NCBI RefSeq assembly: GCF_000468495.1 | Contig: NC_022444.1 | Location: forward strand, 3,061,681 to 3,125,680 | DNA: 64,000 nucleotides | Direction: 5' to 3' | Source: Megalodesulfovibrio gigas DSM 1382 = ATCC 19364 | GTDB taxonomy: Bacteria > Desulfobacterota > Desulfovibrionia > Desulfovibrionales > Desulfovibrionaceae | Part shown: positions 24,977-37,150 of the stretch, one piece after another | Layout of the letters: each line of letters opens with the position of its first letter | Numbering within the stretch: the stretch's first letter is position 1 | Program-made: the position numbers and the translations under genes | Notes under the pieces: model-generated | Seen by the model: only the letters and a program-made list of their open reading frames with translations | Database searches by the model: none | What the model was told of the DNA's origin: nothing

Positions 24977-25091
24977 ATTGCGAGCACTGACGGCATCCGA
25001 ACTGGACCCCGGCGCAGCGCGATGAGACCGACTTTCGTTGCCGGGCGCTGCCGCCTGGCCGGGCTCCAACCAGGCGCAACACCGCACTCGC

Positions 25092-26540
25092 ATGGCCGAC
25101 CCCACGCCCGCCCCGTCCCCTCCCGTCATTCCCTTGCCACTGGTGGAACATCTGTTCGATTCCCCGGTGGAACTGTTGCCCCTGCTCAACAGCATCCCCC
25201 TGCCGGTGGTGCTGCTCTCCAAAGACAAGCGCGTGCTTCTGCTTAACCGGCCAGCCCAGGCCCTCACCGGCTTTTCCCAGGAAGACGCCCAGGGCCTGCC
25301 CTGCCGCCACGTGCTGCGCTCCAGCCTGTGCGTGCGCGGCTGCCCCCTGGATGCACTGGGGGCCGAAGACCGCGCCGTGGTCCACGAGGCAGACATCATC
25401 AACAAGCTGCGCCAGCGCATTCCCGTACGGGCCACACAGTCCCCGGCCGTCACCTCCCAGGGCCGTCTGGCCGGGTACATCGAATGCATTGAAGACTTGC
25501 GCCCCCTCTCGGAGATGGCCAACCGGCAGCAGGCCGGCTTCACCTTCGGCCGCATCGTGGGGCGCTCCCCGCAGATGGAACGGCTTTTCCAGCTGGTGCC
25601 CTCCATCGCCTCTTCGGACTCCTCCGTGCTGGTGACCGGCGAAACCGGCACGGGCAAGGATCTGCTGGCCGAGGCCATCCATCAGGCCTCGCCCCGGGGC
25701 AAGGGCCCCTTCGTGAAGGTGAACTGCGGCGCCCTGCCGGAATCGCTGCTGGAATCCGAACTCTTCGGCCACCGCAAGGGCGCGTTCACCGGCGCCACCG
25801 AAAACAAGCCCGGCCGGTTTCAGCTTGCCCATAATGGCACGCTGTTTTTGACCGAAATCGGGGACCTGCCCCTGACCCTGCAGGTGAAGCTACTGACCTT
25901 TCTGGACGACCGCGTCATCTCCCCCCTGGGCGGCAGCATGCCCGTGCCGGTGAATGTGCGGCTCATCGCCGCCACCCACCGCAACCTGGAGGAGATGGTG
26001 CGCGCCGGCACGTTTCGTCAGGATCTCTTTTTCCGCCTCAATGTGGTGCGGCTGCACATCCCGGCCTTGCGCGACCGCGAAGAGGATGTGGATCTGCTGC
26101 TGGATCACTTCCTGCGCCGCATCAACGAGGAATTCAAGAAGCACGTGCAGACCTTCAGCGACGAAGCACGTGACATCCTGCTGCATTATGCCTATCCTGG
26201 CAACGTGCGCGAGCTGCGAAACATCGTGGAATACGCCGTCAACGTCTGCAACGGCAGCCGCATCGAACGCACCCACCTGCCTTCCTATCTGCTGGAACAG
26301 TCAGACATCCTGCCCGTGGCCTTCCGCCGGCTGGAGGCCGGTCCCGCTGCCACCGCCCTGCCTGTGCCAGCCGGCAACCCGGCCGTGCACGAGGGCGACG
26401 CATGGTCTGATATCGAGAAACGCATGATCCTCCAGGCCCTGGCCCAGGCCAAGGGCCGTCGGGGCAAGGCCGCCGATCTGCTCGGCTGGGGCCGCTCCAC
26501 CTTGTGGCGAAAAATGAAGCTGTACGGTCTGGATACATAA
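25092..26540 (+). CDS. PAS-containing sigma54-dependent transcriptional activator
   Basis: An N-terminal PAS domain (about 25-135) with a Cys triad at residues 71, 80 and 84 precedes an AAA+ domain: Walker A GETGTGKD (183-190), the sigma54 contact loop GAFTGA (230-235) and the arginine-finger region RQDLFFRLN. A Fis-type helix-turn-helix ends the protein (GRRGKAADLLGWGRSTLWRKM). Walker B reads LFLTEIGD, with Thr254 where the family has the Mg-binding Asp. The Cys triad suggests redox or metal sensing. The ATG has no clear ribosome-binding site; a TTG at 25038 is possible. A sigma54 promoter lies 0.5 kb downstream at 27047. Confidence 0.85.
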   Translation: MADPTPAPSPPVIPLPLVEHLFDSPVELLPLLNSIPLPVVLLSKDKRVLLLNRPAQALTGFSQEDAQGLPCRHVLRSSLCVRGCPLDALGAEDRAVVHEADIINKLRQRIPVRATQSPAVTSQGRLAGYIECIEDLRPLSEMANRQQAGFTFGRIVGRSPQMERLFQLVPSIASSDSSVLVTGETGTGKDLLAEAIHQASPRGKGPFVKVNCGALPESLLESELFGHRKGAFTGATENKPGRFQLAHNGTLFLTEIGDLPLTLQVKLLTFLDDRVISPLGGSMPVPVNVRLIAATHRNLEEMVRAGTFRQDLFFRLNVVRLHIPALRDREEDVDLLLDHFLRRINEEFKKHVQTFSDEARDILLHYAYPGNVRELRNIVEYAVNVCNGSRIERTHLPSYLLEQSDILPVAFRRLEAGPAATALPVPAGNPAVHEGDAWSDIEKRMILQALAQAKGRRGKAADLLGWGRSTLWRKMKLYGLDT

Positions 26541-26558: not shown

Positions 26559-26915
26559 ATGCCGCGTCTGCTCATCCCCCTGCTCGGCCTGGAAGTGGCC
26601 CCCCGGTTCGATCTAGCCACGGAAGTCTGGATCGGCGAGCTGGATGCCGCCACGCCGGAACACATCACCGGCAGCACCATCATCGTCCTGCCCCAGGCCT
26701 CGGCCGAGGATCTCTGCCAGCTGATCCTCAAGGAAGCCGTGGATGTGGTGCTGTGCGGGGGCATTGAGGAAGAATTCTACGACTATCTGCAGTGGAAACG
26801 CATCCAGGTGATCGATTCGGTCATCGCCCTGGCAGACGACGCCGCCCGGGCCTACGGGCGCGGCGAGTTGGGGCCGGGCACGCCAGACATCCGGGTGCTG
26901 CTGCCGCGCGGCTGA
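26559..26915 (+). CDS. NifX/NifB-type dinitrogenase iron-molybdenum cofactor-binding domain protein
   Basis: This 118-residue protein matches the small alpha/beta domain of the NifX/NafY/NifB C-terminal group: a start in RLLIPLLGLEVAPRFDLATEVWI, then VDVVLCGGIEEEFYDYL and a closing RVLLPRG. Family members bind Fe-S or Fe-Mo cluster precursors, and in sulfate reducers stand-alone copies are often linked to regulators. It lies 18 bases after the sigma54 activator stop and shares its operon, so it may modulate that regulator or carry a metal cluster. CCGGAG precedes the ATG. Confidence 0.7.
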   Translation: MPRLLIPLLGLEVAPRFDLATEVWIGELDAATPEHITGSTIIVLPQASAEDLCQLILKEAVDVVLCGGIEEEFYDYLQWKRIQVIDSVIALADDAARAYGRGELGPGTPDIRVLLPRG

Positions 26916-26990: not shown

Positions 26991-27046
26991 ACCCCGGCGT
27001 GTGGGAAATCCACGCAACCGCTCGAAATTCCACATTCCGTCCATCT

Positions 27047-27062
27047 TGGCACGCCTCTTGTT
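27047..27062 (+). promoter_or_regulatory. Sigma54 (RpoN) -24/-12 promoter
   Basis: TGGCACGCCTCTTGTT matches the RpoN consensus TGGCAC-N5-TTGC: the -24 GG and the -12 GT are ten bases apart, and only the final C of TTGC differs. It lies 64 bases before the ATG of the PEP-dikinase-like gene. Confidence 0.75.
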
Positions 27063-27125
27063 AAATCCTGGTCATGTGCGGTGCGCCAATGTGCCGCATG
27101 TGAAAGAAGTCGCAAGGAGGTCGCC

Positions 27126-29841
27126 ATGTTTCGATTCCTGCAATCCATCAAGTCCTTTCTGGGCGGCGGCAACGCGTCCCGGGAGCCCCGGCATGGCGGG
27201 TTGGAAGACACCTATGCCGCCGTGGCGTTTGCGGAACGCGGCGAGCATACCATGGCCGCGCGCGACATCCTGGGCGCCGTGCAGCGCGATTCCCGTGTGC
27301 GGCACAGTCTGGGGGCACTTTTGCCAGACCCTGCCCGAGCCCATTGCCGAGGACGTGCTGGCCTGGCTGGACAGCCAGACCGTGCGCATCGGCCGCGACG
27401 TCTTCACCATGCTCCAGGCCCTGCAGGCCATGGCTCCGAAGCAATACAGCGCGCTGACGGAACGATTCCGCGACATCTACCGGGATATCAACGCCACCCT
27501 GCGCCCGGCCTTCGTCTCCCCCGACGGCCCGCTGACGTTGCGCATCTCCGAAATGAACAGCGGCATGGGCGGCGTGGTGGGCGGCAAGATGGCCCAGCTG
27601 GGCGAGCTGCGCAACCAGCTGCTCTTCAACGTGCCGCCGGGATTCGCCGTCACCGTGCACGGGTTCGCCCTGTTCCGGGACGCCATTGGCCTGACGGATC
27701 TGGTGGCCATGGAGTGCGGCAACCTGTCGCCCTCCAATCCGCAGGAACTGCACGCCGCCTGCACGCGCATCCGCAAGACCATCATGGCGGCCACCCTCCC
27801 CGACGAGCTGGAAGAAGCCATCTGGAAACAGTTCGCCCGCCTGCAGTCCCTCAAGGGCAAGGATGTGGCCGTGGCCGTGCGCTCCAGCGCCGTGGGCGAG
27901 GATGCGCCGGGCGCCTCCTTTGCCGGCCAGTTCCGCACCCTGCTCAATGTGCGCGAGCATGCGCTCATCGACGCCATCAGGGAAGTGATGGCCAGCTTGT
28001 GGTCCCCGGCAGCCGTGAGCTACCGCAAGCGCCTGGGCATGCGCGAAACAGAAGCCGTGATGGCCGTGGGCGTGCTGACCCAGGAAAACGCCGTCTGCGG
28101 CGGCGTGGCCTACTCCCGTCATCCCCTGGATCCTGGCCTGGACGCCGTGACCATCGCCGCCAACTGGGGCCTGCCCAAGAGCGTGGTGGACGGCGCCGTG
28201 CCCACGGACCACTTCATGGTCTCCCGCTTCACCCCCATGCGCGTGGTGGAACGCCGCGTGGCCATAAAGCAGCGCAAATTCATCTGCCTGCCAGAGGAAG
28301 GCGTCTGCCGTCTGGAGGTGAACCCCGAGGACGCCGCCCGCCCCAGCCTGGACGACGCCCAGGCCATCAAGGTGGCCCACGCGGCCATGCGGATGGAAGA
28401 ATACTACGGGCATCCCGTGGATATCGAATGGTGCATCGGCGCGTCCAACACGGTCACGGTGCTGCAATGCCGCCCCCTGGAGGTGGCCCGGGACGTGCAA
28501 ACCCAGCATCTGCCCCCGAGCATCCCGCCGCTGCTGCACCAGGGCCGCACCGCCTCCCCCGGCGCAGCCTGCGGCCCGGCGTTCATCATCCAGAAAGAAG
28601 CGGACATGCTCCAGTTTCCCGAAGGCGCCGTGCTGGTGGCGGAAACCGCCTCCCCGCGCTATGCGGCGCTGTTGCCCAAGGCCGCGGCGGTGCTCACGGA
28701 GCACGGCAGCCTGACCGGCCATCTGGCCAATGTGGCCCGGGAGATGGGGGTGCCGGCGGTGTTCGGCCTGGAAGACGCGCGTACGCGCGTGCATCCCGGC
28801 AAGGAGCTGACCGTGGATGCGGATCTGGCCATGGTCTTCCCCGGCCGGGTGCGCCAGGTGCTCGCGCGGCCCACGCCGCGGCCGATGCTGGGGCAAACCC
28901 CCGGCCGCACCGCCATGCGCGCCGTGCTGGAAAAAATTGACCCCCTGACCATGGTGGATCCCCACGCCCCCAGCTTCCGGTCCGCCTCCTGCAAGACGTG
29001 GCACGACATCACCCGCTTCTGCCACGAAAAAATCGTCATGGAGCTGTTCGAGCAGGCCGAGAGCCTGGACCAGAAGATGGACGATTGCGACATGCGCGAG
29101 TGCCGCCGTCTGGTGGCGGAAAACGCCATGCAGTTCTGGGTGCTGGACCTCGGCGGCGGCGTGAAGCCCCGCTCCGAGGAGCTGGAAGTGGTGGAAGGCG
29201 TGTACATGGGCCGCAAGATCTCGCGGACCATCGTCAAGAAGATCGTCACCCTGGAAGAAATCGTCTGCGAGCCCATGCAGGCCGTCTGGCGGGGCATGAT
29301 GGCCAAGCCCTGGGAAGGCCCGCCGCCCATCGACTCCCGCGGGCTCATGAGCGTGTTCATGCAGGCCACCACCAATCCCATGCTGGACGTGAGCCGCGGC
29401 TCACCCATGCAAAACAAGAACTACTTCATCATCTCCAAGGATTTCGTCTGCCTGCAGTCGCGCTTCGGCTTTCACTTTCTCACGGTGGAGGCCCTGGTGA
29501 CGCCCGATCCCTCCAATGCCTATGCCCTGTTCCGCTTCCGCGGCGGTGCAGCGGACTTGGAACGCCGGGCCACCCGCGCCCGTCTGGTGGGCGATCTGCT
29601 GGCCGATCAGGGCTTTGCCATCGATTTGCTGGACGACGCCCTAAACGCCAAGGCCGACAGCCTGCCCCCGGACAAGATGCTGCGGCAGCTGGAAGTGCTG
29701 GGCTACCTGCTCATGCACACCCGACAGCTGGACATGATCATGGCCGACCCCGCCATGGTGGCCCGCTACCGCGCCGTCCTGCAGCAGGACATCAAGGCCC
29801 TGTACGCCGGCAAGTCGCTGACATCCGCCCCCCCGGGCTAG
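27126..29841 (+). CDS. PEP/pyruvate-dikinase-like phosphotransferase (frameshifted), copy 1
   Basis: A strong start (AAGGAGG, ATG at 27126) opens a frame that reads coherently to about codon 61, after which the homologous protein continues one base later. The break sits at a run of five G at 27311-27315. Past it the protein has an ATP-grasp PPDK_N domain (GKMAQLGELRNQLLFNVPPG, AVAVRSSAVGEDAPGASFAGQF), a mobile phospho-His domain (LTEHGSLTGHLANVAREMGVPAVFG) and a C-terminal domain of about 290 residues that is not the usual PEP-binding barrel. It resembles copy 2 at 33540 throughout. The break could be real, programmed (+1) or a sequencing error. Confidence 0.75.
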
Positions 29842-30014
29842 GGCGTTTTAATTTTTTGGAAGAGGACATTGGACCACGATACAAGTCTTTTGGAAATGGT
29901 CCCCCGCTCGCACCACTCTTCTTTTAAGGATAATCTCCTTCAGGACGCCGGCGGCTGATCCCGCCGCCAGAAATTCCCTTGCGCTTGCGCCGGGGGGTGT
30001 CTATTTTCCTCGGC
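29842..30014. other. Intergenic gap with a short hairpin
   Basis: The gap has a T-rich start (GTTTTAATTTTTTGG) and a 6-bp hairpin, CGGCGG (29949-29954)/CCGCCG (29961-29966). It may attenuate read-through into the PhnD-like gene. No promoter of good quality is visible. Confidence 0.35.
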
Positions 30015-31009
30015 ATGACCATCCCTGGCATGATGTCCGGCATCCGCTGGGCCGCCCTCCTTCTGGCCCTGGCCGGCTTGTTCCTGGCGTGTTGCAGCGA
30101 GGGCGAAACCGCCCGCAAGGTGGATTTTTCCAAACGCCAGGACCTGATGCCGCACCTGCCCAGGGACGGGCTGACCTACGCCTACCTGCCCCAGTATTCC
30201 CACACCATCTCCTATGCCCGGCATTACCGGCTGGTGGAACACCTGCGCGCCGTGACCGGGCTGCCCATCCGCCAGGTGTTCCCGGCCACCTTTGCCGAAC
30301 ACATCGACATGGTGCAGCGCGGGGAGATCGACATTTCCTACGTCAACCCCTTCGCCTATCTGAAGATGGCTCGCAGCGGCGCCTTTGCCTTTGCCCGCAT
30401 CATCGAACCCACGGGCTCGCCGGCGTTTCGCGGGGAAATCATCGTCCGGGCGGACAATCCGACCATCAAGACCATTGAGGACTGCCGGGGCAAACGGCTC
30501 ATGGCCGTGGATCCCTCCTCGGCGGGCGGCTTTCTCTTCCCCATGGGCCTGTTCCTGGAACATGGCGTGCACCTGGGAGATTTCGCCGAGGTGGCCTTTG
30601 CGCCGGGTCCGGGCGGCACGCAGGAAAAAGTGGTGCTGGCCGTGCACGCCGGGCTGTACGACGTGGGCGTGGTGCGCGACGGCACCCTGAGTCTGCTGGC
30701 CGACCGCATCGACATTTCCACCATTGCCGTCCTGGGCCGCTCCAAGGCGTACCCGGGCTGGCTGTTCGCCGCACGCCAGGGCTTGGCGCCCGAGGTGGTG
30801 GAGGCGGTGTCGCGGGCGTTGTTCTCCCTGTCCATGAATTCGCCCCTGGATGCGCCCATCCTGGAGGCGGCCCACATCCAGGCCGTGATCCCGGCCCGGG
30901 ATGCGGAGTATGAGCCCGTGCGGGAGCTGGTGGCCCGCCTGGAGGCGGATCTGGCCCGGGGCCGTGTGCCGCACCAGGCACCGACAGACATGCTGACGGA
31001 GGGGATGGA

Positions 31010-31013
<4 letters not shown>
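30015..31013 (+). CDS. PhnD-like periplasmic phosphonate/phosphate-binding lipoprotein
   Basis: A lipoprotein signal peptide (LLLALAGLFLAC) precedes a type II periplasmic-binding fold with PhnD phrases: YAYLPQYSHTISYARHYRLVEHL at the start, RGEIDISYVNPFAYL, SSAGGFLFP and LYDVGVVRDGTL. PhnD proteins bind phosphonate, phosphite or related anions for ABC import. There is no permease here; the gene overlaps the sensor kinase start (ATGA), so it is probably the kinase's ligand-binding partner. I chose the ATG at 30015; GTG (29997) and TTG (29979) are upstream alternatives. Confidence 0.75.
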
Positions 31014-33142
<2,129 letters not shown>

Positions 33143-33165
33143 GCCACTCCACCACAAGGACCCCC

Positions 33166-33525
33166 ATGGCAAACATCATCGTGCTGGACGACGTGGCCGA
33201 CGCCGGCGTGCTCATCAAGCGCATCCTGGAGCGCAAGGGCCACGCCGTGACCAGCTTTACCGAAGAGGAAGAAGCCCTGGCCTTTGCCGCCAAACACCGG
33301 CCGCAGCTGGCCATCCTGGACATCAAACTCAAGAAGATGACTGGCGTGGAAGTGCTGGACGAGCTGAAAAAGATCGACGCCGGCATCAAGGTCATCATGC
33401 TCACAGGCTATCCCACCCTGGAAACGGCGCGCGAAAGCGTGCGCCTGGGCGCGGACGAATACTGCGTGAAACCCATCGACAAGGACGAGCTCGAATTCAA
33501 GGTGGAAGAGGTGCTCGCCAAGTAA
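33166..33525 (+). CDS. Single-domain response regulator
   Basis: This 119-residue receiver has the acidic pocket (VLDD at the N terminus), the phospho-acceptor in LAILDIKLKKMTG, the Thr of MLTGYPT and the Lys of CVKPIDK. It has no output domain, so it acts through a partner, possibly the PEP-dikinase-like proteins or another phosphotransfer protein. The start has AAGGA six bases upstream; a GTG at 33139 that overlaps the kinase stop would add nine residues. It is cotranscribed with the kinase. Confidence 0.85.
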   Translation: MANIIVLDDVADAGVLIKRILERKGHAVTSFTEEEEALAFAAKHRPQLAILDIKLKKMTGVEVLDELKKIDAGIKVIMLTGYPTLETARESVRLGADEYCVKPIDKDELEFKVEEVLAK

Positions 33526-33539
33526 GCCCCAGCCGTGGT

Positions 33540-36077
33540 ATGCAGGTCCCCGTGCTGAACAAGGAACTACTGAAACACTGGACCTATCAGGTCTTTGCGC
33601 CGGGGACGCTGCTGCGGGTCCGGTACGAGGCGTTTCGCGAGCTGCTGGCCCTGGACGAAACCTGCCTGGAGCGCATCACCGAGCTGGAAGACATCCACTA
33701 CGGCCGCCGCGCCGTGGACTGGACCCGCGTGGTGTATCTGGTGCACGAGCTGGAGGACCTCGGCCGCAAACTCGTCTCCGCCCTGACCTCCCTCTCGCCC
33801 ACCAAGGGCGTTGCCTTGATGGAATATTTCCAGAAGATCGCCTTCTATCTGGAAATGGCGGTGGACATCGCCCCACCCGAAGCCGCCCCGCCCTTTGTGC
33901 TGCCCCTGGACCCCAAGGCCCCGCCGGCCCAGCTGGGCGGCAAGGCCGCCAATCTGGTGCAGGCCCGCCAGCTTCCGGACATGCCCATGCCCCAGGGCTT
34001 CGTCATCGCCGCCAGCGCCTTTCATTATTTTCTGGAAGCCAACAACCTGCGCGAAGCCCTGGACGAACAACTGCGCACCCTGCGGCTGGACGATCCCGAG
34101 GGCCTGGAGCGCGCCAGCGCCACCTTGCAGGCCCTGGTGCGCGAGGCCGAGATTCCCCCGGCCATCCTGCAGGAGCTGGCCCAGGCCCGCGCCAGCCTGC
34201 CCACCCCGGCCGCCCGCCTGGCCGTGCGCTCCAGCGCCGTGGCCGAGGATGCGGCCAATTCCTTCGCCGGGCAGTACGACAGCCTCCTGGACGTGGTCCC
34301 CGAGGATCTGCCCGAGGCCTGGCGCACCGTGGTCATGGGCAAGTATTCCCCCCGGGCCCTGACCTACCGCATTCTTACCGGCCTGTCGGACCTGGAAACG
34401 CCCATGGCCGTACTGGTCATGCCCATGGTGGACGCTGCCTATGCCGGCGTCTGCTACACCCGCGATGCGGACCGCTCCGCCAGCCTGTGCGGCATGATGG
34501 CCCTGTACGCCGTGCCGGGGCTGGGGGAGAATCTCGTCAGCGGCCGACTGTCTCCCGGGGTGTTCTGCATCGATCCCGGCGCGCCGCCGGCGCATCCCCC
34601 GGCCATCCTGCAGCGGCCGCCCGGCTTTGCCGGTCTGCCCGACGAGACCGTGCGCCGTCTGGCCCGCATGGCCTGGCAACTGGAGCAGTTCTTCGGCAGC
34701 CCGCAGGATGTGGAATGGGCCGTGGACCGGGCCGGTGCGCCATGGATTTTGCAAACCCGGCCCATGCAGCAAGGCCAGACGGCCACGCCCGCCGCCTTTG
34801 CTGCAGAGCAGCTGCCTGAGCATATCCCCGGGCATCTGCCCGAGCATCTGCCCGAACATCTGCCCGAACATCTGCCGGATCCCCTGCTGTCCGGCGGCGT
34901 GTCCGTCTCCCCTGGCGGCGCCTGTGGCCCGGTGGTGCACGCCCGCACCGAGGCGGCCATCCGCAGTGCGCCGGCCGGCTGCATCCTGATCACGGAATCC
35001 ATGCCGCCCTCCCTGGTGCAGATCATGGGCCAGGTGGCCGGGGTGATCAGCCTGCGGGGCAGCCGGGCCTCTCATTTTGCCTCCGTGGCCCGGGAATTCG
35101 GCCTGCCGGTGGTGGTGGGTGGCGACCGCGTGTTTTCCCTGCTCCGGGAAGGCGAAGAAATCACCCTGGACGCCGTGCACGGCCACGTCTTTCCCGGCTG
35201 CATCCAGGCCGTGGTGGAGGCTGCCCGGCTGCCGCGCAAGTCCCTGGTGGCGGCGGCGCACTCCCGCCTGGGCAAGCTCCTGCCGCATGTGGCCACCCTC
35301 TCCCTCACGGACCCCACCTCCCCCCAGTTCCGGCCGGAAAGCTGCCGCTCCGTGCACGATGTGGTCCGCTTTGCCCACGAAACCGCGGTGCAGGAAATGT
35401 TCTCCCTGCTGGGCAAGTCTGCCCGCGGCATGGCCCGGGCCAAGAAGCTCCAGACCCGCCTGCCCATGAGCATGTACGTGCTGGACCTGGGCGGCGGCCT
35501 CTTTGCCGGCGCGCGGGACAAGGCCGAGATTGTCCCGGACGACATCACCTCCACCCCCATGTGGGCGCTGTGGTGGGGCATGTCCAGCGTGCCCCTGCCG
35601 GCCGCCTCCCTGCCCATGGCCGACTGGGAATCCCTGGACCGCCACAGCGGCGGGCTGCTGCTGGACGACAGACTGCTGGCCAGCTTCGCCGTCATTGATG
35701 ATGCCTACGCCCATCTGATGCTGCGCTTCGGCTATCATTTCTGTGTGGTGGACGCCCTGTGCGTGCAGGGTGGGGAAAAAAACCATGTGGCCGTGCGCTT
35801 CAAGGGCGGCGGCGGGCAGTATCACCAACGGCTGCTGCGGCTGGATTTCCTCCGCCACGTACTGGAGGCGCAAGGGTTTTCCATCAAGACCATGGGAGAT
35901 TTGTTCGAGGCCCGTCTGGCCGGGGTGGACTGCAACACCCTGCGCCGCCGGCTGGTGGTGCTGGGTCGGTTGCTGGCCACCACCCGGCTCATGGACATGG
36001 CCCTGGACACCCCCGAGCAGGCCCACGCCCAGGCCCGGGAGTTCCTGGACGCCATGGCCGCCGAGCAGGAACACTAG
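33540..36077 (+). CDS. PEP/pyruvate-dikinase-like phosphotransferase, copy 2
   Basis: An N-terminal helical region (1-125) is followed by an ATP-grasp PPDK_N domain (about 130-410; LGGKAANLVQAR, AVRSSAVAEDAANSFAGQ, WILQTRPM), a Leu-Pro-Glu-His repeat linker (425-444), a mobile phospho-His domain with SRASHFASVAREFGLP, and a C-terminal domain of about 280 residues shared with copy 1. The PEP-binding barrel of true PEP synthase is not seen, so this may phosphorylate another substrate, as rifampin phosphotransferase does. Downstream, the phosphatase gene follows immediately. Confidence 0.75.
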   Translation: MQVPVLNKELLKHWTYQVFAPGTLLRVRYEAFRELLALDETCLERITELEDIHYGRRAVDWTRVVYLVHELEDLGRKLVSALTSLSPTKGVALMEYFQKIAFYLEMAVDIAPPEAAPPFVLPLDPKAPPAQLGGKAANLVQARQLPDMPMPQGFVIAASAFHYFLEANNLREALDEQLRTLRLDDPEGLERASATLQALVREAEIPPAILQELAQARASLPTPAARLAVRSSAVAEDAANSFAGQYDSLLDVVPEDLPEAWRTVVMGKYSPRALTYRILTGLSDLETPMAVLVMPMVDAAYAGVCYTRDADRSASLCGMMALYAVPGLGENLVSGRLSPGVFCIDPGAPPAHPPAILQRPPGFAGLPDETVRRLARMAWQLEQFFGSPQDVEWAVDRAGAPWILQTRPMQQGQTATPAAFAAEQLPEHIPGHLPEHLPEHLPEHLPDPLLSGGVSVSPGGACGPVVHARTEAAIRSAPAGCILITESMPPSLVQIMGQVAGVISLRGSRASHFASVAREFGLPVVVGGDRVFSLLREGEEITLDAVHGHVFPGCIQAVVEAARLPRKSLVAAAHSRLGKLLPHVATLSLTDPTSPQFRPESCRSVHDVVRFAHETAVQEMFSLLGKSARGMARAKKLQTRLPMSMYVLDLGGGLFAGARDKAEIVPDDITSTPMWALWWGMSSVPLPAASLPMADWESLDRHSGGLLLDDRLLASFAVIDDAYAHLMLRFGYHFCVVDALCVQGGEKNHVAVRFKGGGGQYHQRLLRLDFLRHVLEAQGFSIKTMGDLFEARLAGVDCNTLRRRLVVLGRLLATTRLMDMALDTPEQAHAQAREFLDAMAAEQEH
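34812..34871. repeat. Five 12-base tandem repeats encoding LPEH
   Basis: CTGCCYGARCAT-type units run five times in register inside copy 2 and encode LPEH-IPGH-LPEH-LPEH-LPEH at residues 425-444, between the ATP-grasp and mobile domains. This is likely an extended swivel linker whose length can vary by replication slippage. Confidence 0.8.
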
Positions 36078-36079
36078 CC

Positions 36080-37150
36080 GTGGCCGGCCGGGAATCGCCG
36101 CTCATGTGGGTCTCGGACCAGCTGGCCGTGGGCGCGGCACCCCTCTCCTACGTGCAACTGGCCCGCCTGCACGACGAGGGCATTTCCGCCATCCTCAACC
36201 TGTGCGACGAGTTCTGCGACCTGCACGACATCGAGCGCGATCACGGGTTCGAGGTCCATCACCTCCCCATCCCCGACGAAGAAGCCCCGGACATGACCGC
36301 CCTGGAACAGGCCCTCTCCTGGCTGGACGAGGCCATCTATCTGGGCAAGAAGGTCTACATCCACTGCCGCCACGGCATCGGCCGCACCGGCACCGTGCTC
36401 AATGCCTACCTGCTGCGCCGCGGCCTGGGCTACAAGCTGGCGGATCGCGTGCTGGCCAAGCTGCGCAGCAAGCCCACCAACTTCTGCCAGTGGCGGGCCG
36501 TCAAGCGCTACGGCAAGGTTGCCGGCAAGCTGACCATCCGCGAGCCGCGGCTGGAGTTCAAACGGCTGGTGGATCTGCATCCCTTCATCCACGATTACGA
36601 AAATCTGGCCGCCGAGGTCGAGGCCGCCATTGCCGCCGCCTGCGCTGCCCTGCCTCGGTGCGGCCGCGAACATGCCCGCTGCTGCAGCCGGCCCGTGCAA
36701 CTGACGTTCATCGAGGCCGTGGATCTGGCCACCGTGATCAACCAGGAACTAACCAGCGAGAAGCGCCAGGCCCTCATCGAACGCGCCACCCAGGCCTCCC
36801 GCCAGGAGCGGCTTGCCCGTCAGGCCCAGACGCAGGATGCCCAAATCGTCCAGGGAGAAAGCTGTCTGGCGGACATGGCCTTCCCCTGCCCCCTGCTGGA
36901 GGACGGCCGCTGCCTGCTCTTCTACATGCGGCCCCTGCAATGCCGCACTTACGGCATGCCCGCGGATGCTGCGGATGCGCTCTGGCGGCACATCTCCCCC
37001 ACCCTGGCCCAGCTCTCCAGCCAGACCTTTCTGGCCCTCTCCGGCTCGTTTCTGCCGGAATCGCCCCTGACCTTCTCCATTGCGGAGGTGGTCTCCGGCC
37101 GCTACGTCCAGCGCTTCTTCCACCAGCTCCGTCTGGCCATGCAGGGGTAG
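36080..37150 (+). CDS. Dual-specificity phosphatase fused to a YkgJ-like Cys-cluster domain
   Basis: Residues 1-150 form a dual-specificity/tyrosine phosphatase with the P-loop HCRHGIGRTG (Cys96, Arg102) and the general-acid candidate in PDEEAPD. Residues about 180-350 carry C194, C201-C202, then C270, C278 and C288 in the pattern CPLLEDGRC..RPLQCRTYG, which matches the YkgJ family of zinc/iron-chelating domains. The start is GTG, with AGGAA upstream; ATG at 36104 is an alternative. It ends the PhnD/kinase/dikinase cluster and could reverse phosphorylation made by the proteins encoded upstream. I know of no standard family with this fusion. Confidence 0.8.
   Translation: MAGRESPLMWVSDQLAVGAAPLSYVQLARLHDEGISAILNLCDEFCDLHDIERDHGFEVHHLPIPDEEAPDMTALEQALSWLDEAIYLGKKVYIHCRHGIGRTGTVLNAYLLRRGLGYKLADRVLAKLRSKPTNFCQWRAVKRYGKVAGKLTIREPRLEFKRLVDLHPFIHDYENLAAEVEAAIAAACAALPRCGREHARCCSRPVQLTFIEAVDLATVINQELTSEKRQALIERATQASRQERLARQAQTQDAQIVQGESCLADMAFPCPLLEDGRCLLFYMRPLQCRTYGMPADAADALWRHISPTLAQLSSQTFLALSGSFLPESPLTFSIAEVVSGRYVQRFFHQLRLAMQG

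Follow-up and report, generated by a model that had tools for sequence, protein, structure and literature searches.

In a stretch of 64,000 nucleotides (hereafter the window) from the circular chromosome of Megalodesulfovibrio (Desulfovibrio) gigas (G000:C2, 3,693,899 bases) we analyzed an operon that encodes a PhnD-like periplasmic lipoprotein, a sensor histidine kinase (HK), a receiver-only response regulator (RR), a dikinase-like phosphotransferase (DIK2) and a phosphatase. By gene order and annotation this core is the likely M. gigas counterpart of the 'nitrate cluster' described in Desulfovibrio (DVU0249-DVU0245 / Dde_0601-0605), and we favor, with moderate confidence, a reading in which an oxyanion signal would pass through the kinase and the receiver to phosphotransfer by DIK2, thereby enabling an anion permease of the TauE/SafE (TSUP) type. 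While the core is already known as a genetic nitrate cluster, the dikinase family with its link to two-component and permease genes, and the seemingly undescribed domain that it carries, appear to be new. The core is made up of the following features:

29979-31013, + strand: PhnD/PtxB-like periplasmic binding lipoprotein, the sensor (PF12974, 190 bits)
31010-33142, + strand: HK with sCache_3_2, a HAMP-like segment, a 6-Cys cluster, PAS, HisKA and HATPase (Pfam)
33166-33525, + strand: RR, receiver domain only (PF00072)
33540-36077, + strand: DIK2, dikinase-like phosphotransferase (Pfam, conservation, PEP synthase alignment, structure models)
33579-33920 and 33930-34793, + strand: helical domain and ATP-grasp in the N-terminal part of DIK2
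34971-35183 and 35187-36074, + strand: mobile domain (His518 at 35073-35075) and new C-terminal domain in the C-terminal part of DIK2
~36080-37150, + strand: dual-specificity (DSP) phosphatase fused to a YkgJ-like Cys domain (Cys98 of HCX5R at ~36365; Cys domain 36659-36943)

An initial annotation of the region had listed six genes, a first dikinase-like gene (DIK1) and the five of the core, and all of them are present in the order given there. The junctions are tight, with a 4-base overlap between the PhnD-like gene and HK and gaps of 2–26 bases at the remaining ones from HK to the phosphatase. Its genes and domains are confirmed and its signalling operon is supported, while the single promoter unit, the conserved pair of dikinases, the sigma54 control of the core and the phosphonate/phosphite signal are not supported, as described below.

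To see how well the core is conserved we compared 41 loci and left out two that belong to a paralogous region of M. gigas itself (L058, L059), so that 39 with a DIK2 orthologue remained, including a truncated contig from a metagenome-assembled genome (MAG) of a sister species. The order PhnD-HK-RR-DIK2-phosphatase is kept in 35 of the 39, the exceptions being the truncated MAG contig, L070 with insertions, and L075 and L076 with DIK2 and the phosphatase alone. This very strong conservation of the neighbourhood supports a signalling operon in which a dikinase-like phosphotransferase takes its input from a PhnD-like protein of the periplasm by way of a kinase and a receiver, accompanied by a phosphatase. 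Asp52 and Lys102 of the RR are invariant in an alignment of 38 rows, all of which are receiver only (105–144 aa, nearly all 119–125). The Cys cluster noted earlier in HK consists of six Cys between HAMP and PAS (31694-31846), every one of which is kept in 36 of the 37 aligned rows, and possibly forms a redox or metal sensor. The phosphatase carries the motif HCRHGIGRTG, and its YkgJ-like Cys pattern is invariant, in agreement with the metal-binding-type domain proposed for it. Some variation was also seen around the core. A bacterial-PH-domain gene (PF10882) lies on the opposite strand between PhnD and M250, a membrane protein of about 190–200 aa, in 10 loci (L065:4300-4809), and in one genus TSUP-M250-PhnD-HK is followed by a different dikinase (30% identical) with DIK2-phosphatase elsewhere (L100:8349-15196). 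Another family holds PhnD-HK-RR with the phosphatase and the dikinase oppositely oriented (L145, G221), so the nitrate-cluster type is also present beyond the Desulfovibrionaceae.

The TauE/SafE permease and M250 adjoin the core in 29 loci. In M. gigas both are found at ~278.8-280.6 kb of the chromosome (G000:C2; L098:8291-10141), with the permease 84% identical to that of a relative, and as this is about 0.9 Mb from the core on the circular chromosome the likely output permease had been overlooked in the initial annotation. In a set of 119 genomes of the family, 59 of 59 carriers have both DIK2 and the phosphatase and 60 of 60 non-carriers have neither, and M250 accompanies DIK2 in 58 of 59 (Fisher 5e-23, with counts not corrected for shared ancestry). 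Since M250 is unlinked to DIK2 in 20 of 56 genomes, its association with DIK2 is not mere linkage. The score cut used for DIK2 orthologues places G031 inside at 464 bits and five genomes of one genus outside at 420–454 bits; these five carry a phosphatase-domain-only homologue.

Both DIK1 and DIK2 contain PF01326 (272 and 213 bits for the two dikinases) and PF00391, and both are devoid of the phosphoenolpyruvate (PEP) barrel in the Pfam search, as had been stated before. The motifs RSSA..ED, DxEW and Q.RP of the ATP-grasp domain PPDK_N are conserved to 88–98%, and the residues R236, E398, Q411 and R413 together with His518 to 97–98% in 76 family members (98% for His518). This histidine aligns with the catalytic His of PEP synthases, the alignment with these enzymes ends at about residue 577, and the His domain (residues 484–554) is followed by the extra C-terminal domain (residues 556–851). 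That the two dikinases share a novel domain at this place is borne out by an alignment of 53 members, in which 14 columns are invariant, among them H57, D58, H64, R180, H184, R218 and D270 in the numbering of the C-terminal fragment. Its predicted structure is confident (pLDDT, the per-residue model confidence, 87.7) and not a barrel. No family in Pfam matched the domain, no relative at E<=0.001 was found among the PDB sequences, and the search of its model against PDB folds also gave none at E<=0.001 (best E 0.015, with a template modelling (TM) score of ~0.2). The domain is apparently undescribed. The N-terminal domain of DIK2 was modelled as a three-helix bundle, for which the fold search gave no meaningful match. 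A role of the dikinases in PEP supply was rejected because of the missing barrel.

The same absence in both copies would fit an explanation in which the dikinase is a degenerate scaffold that has lost kinase activity and titrates the receiver, with the permease controlled at the transcript level by other regulators, and the frequent sigma54 enhancer-binding proteins (EBPs) beside the wider family (33 of 62 dikinase genes) also point in this direction. Against it stand the ATP-grasp motif and the catalytic His, which are conserved at 97–98% in the 76 members, and we consider a scaffold improbable. Somewhat better placed, but still unlikely, is the idea that the product of the dikinase is a phosphorylated small molecule, a metabolite or a second messenger, by analogy with rifampin phosphotransferase, and that this compound rather than a protein phosphate controls expression or activity of the permease. 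The ATP-grasp and phosphohistidine superfamily does act on small molecules, as the matches to PEP synthase and rifamycin phosphotransferase illustrate, and the many invariant polar residues of the C-terminal domain resemble an enzyme pocket, but no receptor- or degrader-like gene was seen among the neighbours and the conserved neighbour is a phosphatase of the DSP or protein tyrosine phosphatase (PTP) type. The usual substrates of such phosphatases are phosphoproteins, with inositol phosphates or nucleotides as the substrates of some members.

The C-terminal domain is not restricted to the nitrate cluster, as we found it in 147 of the 395 genomes sampled from the Desulfobacterota and in 84 of 246 genera. 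A TSUP gene lies within 10 kb of 27 of the 34 tabulated dikinase genes, compared to 1.2 expected (21 genomes with mapped TSUP genes), and within 9 kb of the 62 other family members there is a receiver-only regulator in 58 cases, a kinase in 49, a TSUP gene in 43 and a phosphatase in a single one. The phosphatase is special to the nitrate-cluster type, and the link between receiver, dikinase and permease is general. A search of a plasmid collection revealed no relative, and no published link between dikinase and TauE was found in the literature searched, with most subscription journals lying outside that search. We tentatively suggest, as a possibility that we would not yet call probable, that across the phylum one class of signalling outputs consists of PEP-synthase-like phosphotransferases under the control of receiver-only response regulators, and that the new C-terminal domain of these enzymes would pass phosphate from the phosphohistidine to, or for, TauE/SafE permeases. 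If true, this would be two-component-driven, phosphorylation-gated anion transport made from parts of carbon metabolism. M. gigas itself has two more dikinase paralogues among kinases and receivers (L058:10175-18553, G000:C2 ~3.20 Mb) with a TauE/SafE permease nearby (G000:C2:3197636). Near kinase/receiver/TSUP modules there is also a family of small proteins in which 'LEDTYAAVAFAE.GE' motifs are repeated (L160:2131-2379, L163:5806-6093 and L151), and the one member scanned had no match in Pfam.

Published phenotypes are available for the relatives of the core in D. vulgaris and G20. Transposon mutants in DVU0246, 0247, 0250 and 0251 grow equally with or without 100 mM nitrate (PMC4001038), so that disruption of the permease, M250, receiver or dikinase gene has one common outcome, full growth at this concentration (PMC4001038), and cluster mutants of strain G20 are mildly sick on thiosulfate (PMC4001038). 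The authors of that study proposed a leaky thiosulfate transporter (PMC4001038), which was repeated later (PMC9723548). In line with the earlier suggestion that the phosphatase reverses the pathway, the D. vulgaris phosphatase mutant DVU0245 remains nitrate-sensitive (PMC4001038), but the G20 data disagree.

In the chain that we favor, the ligand of the PhnD-like lipoprotein would be an oxyanion in the periplasm, with thiosulfate or a related oxyanion of sulfur as the most likely candidate. The lipoprotein would then act on the kinase in the membrane, whose cytoplasmic part also contains the 6-Cys segment. The kinase would phosphorylate the receiver-only regulator, and the receiver would switch on DIK2, perhaps through its helical N-terminal domain. 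His518 of DIK2 would be phosphorylated from ATP and the phosphoryl group passed on to a target bound by the C-terminal domain, resulting in an active TauE/SafE anion permease with its membrane partner M250, until the phosphatase switches the signal off. If nitrate harms the cells by entry through, or because of, this permease, loss of any positive component would lead to resistance. We prefer this chain because the mutants in positive components resemble the permease mutant, a DNA-binding domain is missing from the receiver, and the dikinase retains its catalytic residues. Several observations weigh against it: the G20 phosphatase mutant is also nitrate-fit (+2.08), unlike what a simple on/off pair would give (PMC4001038), M250 mutants differ between strains and assays (PMC4001038), and the window has no TSUP, M250 or PhsA gene beside the core. 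In addition, the co-occurrence counts ignore shared ancestry, the DIK2 score cut was chosen by eye, and orthology to DVU0249-0245 was assigned by gene order, annotation and gene length, without direct comparison to the D. vulgaris sequences.

Regarding the signal, the PDB relatives of the PhnD-like sensor include PtxB, HtxB, ArrX and AioX, and the validated PhnD-like sensor kinases TtrS and ThsS are encoded near tetrathionate and thiosulfate reductases (PMC5408782). A PhsA-like gene adjoins the permease in 14 genomes (11 core loci and three unlinked permease loci), its best NCBIfam match being thiosulfate reductase PhsA with 506 bits, which is below the cut-off of 694 bits. Because of the ArrX/AioX relatives, the TtrS/ThsS sensors and the PhsA-like neighbours, the leading candidate for the ligand is probably thiosulfate or another sulfur oxyanion. 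The initial annotation had instead proposed phosphonate/phosphite or phosphate-limitation signalling by two dikinases under sigma54 control on an unspecified target, and PF12974 as well as PtxB, HtxB and PhnD are indeed sequence relatives of the sensor. Against such a signal stand the relatives ArrX and AioX, which are arsenic-oxyanion sensors of two-component systems, the PhsA-like, TSUP and DUF169 genes of the conserved neighbourhood, in which no phosphonate/phosphite genes were seen, and the published phenotypes, which concern nitrate and, mildly, thiosulfate (PMC4001038). Neither in the window operon nor in the conserved neighbourhood did we find ATPase or permease genes of a phosphonate/phosphite ATP-binding cassette transporter (PhnCDE, PtxABC). 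We regard this model as very improbable, also in view of the region upstream of the core, which contains the following features:

~25062-26540, + strand: sigma54 EBP with PAS (Pfam Sigma54_activat, HTH_8, PAS)
26559-26915, + strand: NifX/FeMo-co-binding-like protein, partner of the EBP (PF02579 weak, 24.0 bits vs cut-off 26.3)
27046-27060, + strand: sigma54 (-24/-12) promoter TTGGCACGCCTCTTG (exact pattern match; block kept in the sister species)
27126-27324, + strand: 5' portion of the small 'LEDTYAAVAFAERGEH' gene, ending at the deletion junction (intact in G015:C279, 83 aa)
27324-29841, + strand: DIK1, 5'-truncated dikinase-like gene (Pfam; homology to full-length sister DIK1)
27574-28506, 28615-28824 and 28834-29838, + strand: PPDK_N, mobile His domain and new C-terminal domain of DIK1 (Pfam)

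The pattern of TTGGCACGCCTCTTG has one exact match within the window, whereas the loose pattern with one mismatch is not rarer there than by chance, and the promoter block is identical in the sister species with diverged flanks. The sister MAG, the sole relative returned by a whole-protein scan of genome contigs with DIK2, carries this region on two contigs. Homology to its DIK1 begins exactly at 27324, and the upstream homology (EBP, NifX, sigma54 promoter and start of the small gene) stops exactly there and matches the other contig. The latter reads EBP-NifX-promoter-small gene-RR-RR-TSUPb up to the contig end, and the former TSUPb-234 aa-DIK1-PhnD-HK-RR-DIK2 with DIK1 at full length; from the matching gene halves we infer that the two adjoin inside TSUPb. 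As two different source loci of the sister meet exactly at 27324, a deletion is indicated, by which M. gigas lost roughly 4 kb. The missing segment held the genes of two response regulators and of a TauE/SafE permease, the 234-aa gene and the larger part of the helical domain at the N-terminus of DIK1. A frameshift or sequencing error in DIK1, suspected from a GGGGG run near 27312, was rejected for the same reason. An assembly fault in M. gigas at the junction is a conceivable alternative; the published genome was built from Sanger, 454 and Illumina data with 160-fold coverage (PMC4287179).

DIK1, with most of its N-terminal helical domain gone, is therefore probably a remnant, and together with the sigma54 promoter and the EBP we assign it to a neighbouring decayed TSUP module and not to the core. 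The initial annotation had all genes expressed from one promoter region, but the promoter-proximal ATG (27126) and DIK1 are in different frames, and the small gene, to which DIK1 was joined by the deletion and which is unrelated to it, continues into DIK1 in another reading frame. Among the 39 loci compared, that of the sister species, which belongs to the same genus, is the only one with DIK1 ahead of PhnD, arguing against one module with two dikinases, and the core occurs elsewhere without this EBP and promoter, arguing against its control by sigma54. The upstream promoter and EBP, which would otherwise speak for the phosphonate/phosphite model, belong to this deletion-joined unit. The EBP-NifX pair recurs in other genera (L102, L107, L160) beside TSUP, PhsA and two-component genes, which suggests that permease modules have a regulator of the sigma54 type.

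Nitrate injection is used in oil fields to stop sulfate reducers. Mutations in the nitrate cluster defeat this treatment, and the mode of action of the cluster has been a question since 2014. The association of dikinase and TSUP, kept even when the genes are unlinked, gives a concrete hypothesis that leads from signal to phosphotransferase to permease. With it the long puzzling nitrate-resistance phenotype becomes testable, and a protein domain without annotation is flagged.

In comparison with known systems, the core is closest to the nitrate cluster DVU0251-DVU0245 / Dde_0597-Dde_0605 described by Korte et al. in 2014 (PMC4001038), with the same gene set and order: a PtxB/PhnD-like protein, a PAS/HAMP kinase, a receiver-only regulator, which is encoded by 360 bp in both, a PPDK/PEP-utilizer protein and a DSP phosphatase. 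M. gigas differs from most relatives of this cluster in having its TSUP and M250 genes unlinked, and from the cluster itself by the truncated second dikinase and the sigma54 promoter ahead of the core. DIK1 and DIK2 share the ATP-grasp and swivelling phosphohistidine domains, including motif residues and His, with PEP synthase and pyruvate phosphate dikinase, but an unrelated domain of ~290 aa replaces the PEP/pyruvate TIM barrel and a helical domain is added at the N-terminus. Rifampin phosphotransferase (Rph) likewise uses ATP-grasp and phosphohistidine domains to transfer phosphate to an acceptor other than pyruvate. Its acceptor domain sits between the ATP and His domains, whereas the dikinases depart from this order with an extra domain after the His domain, where the sequences are unrelated. 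In AioXSR/ArrXSR and TtrSR/ThsSR, as in the core, a PhnD-fold periplasmic sensor acts on a histidine kinase and regulator, often near an oxyanion reductase, although in TtrS/ThsS the sensor domain lies within the kinase itself. The core is set apart from AioXSR, ArrXSR, TtrSR and ThsSR by a regulator without DNA-binding output and by the phosphotransferase and phosphatase genes at the end of its operon.

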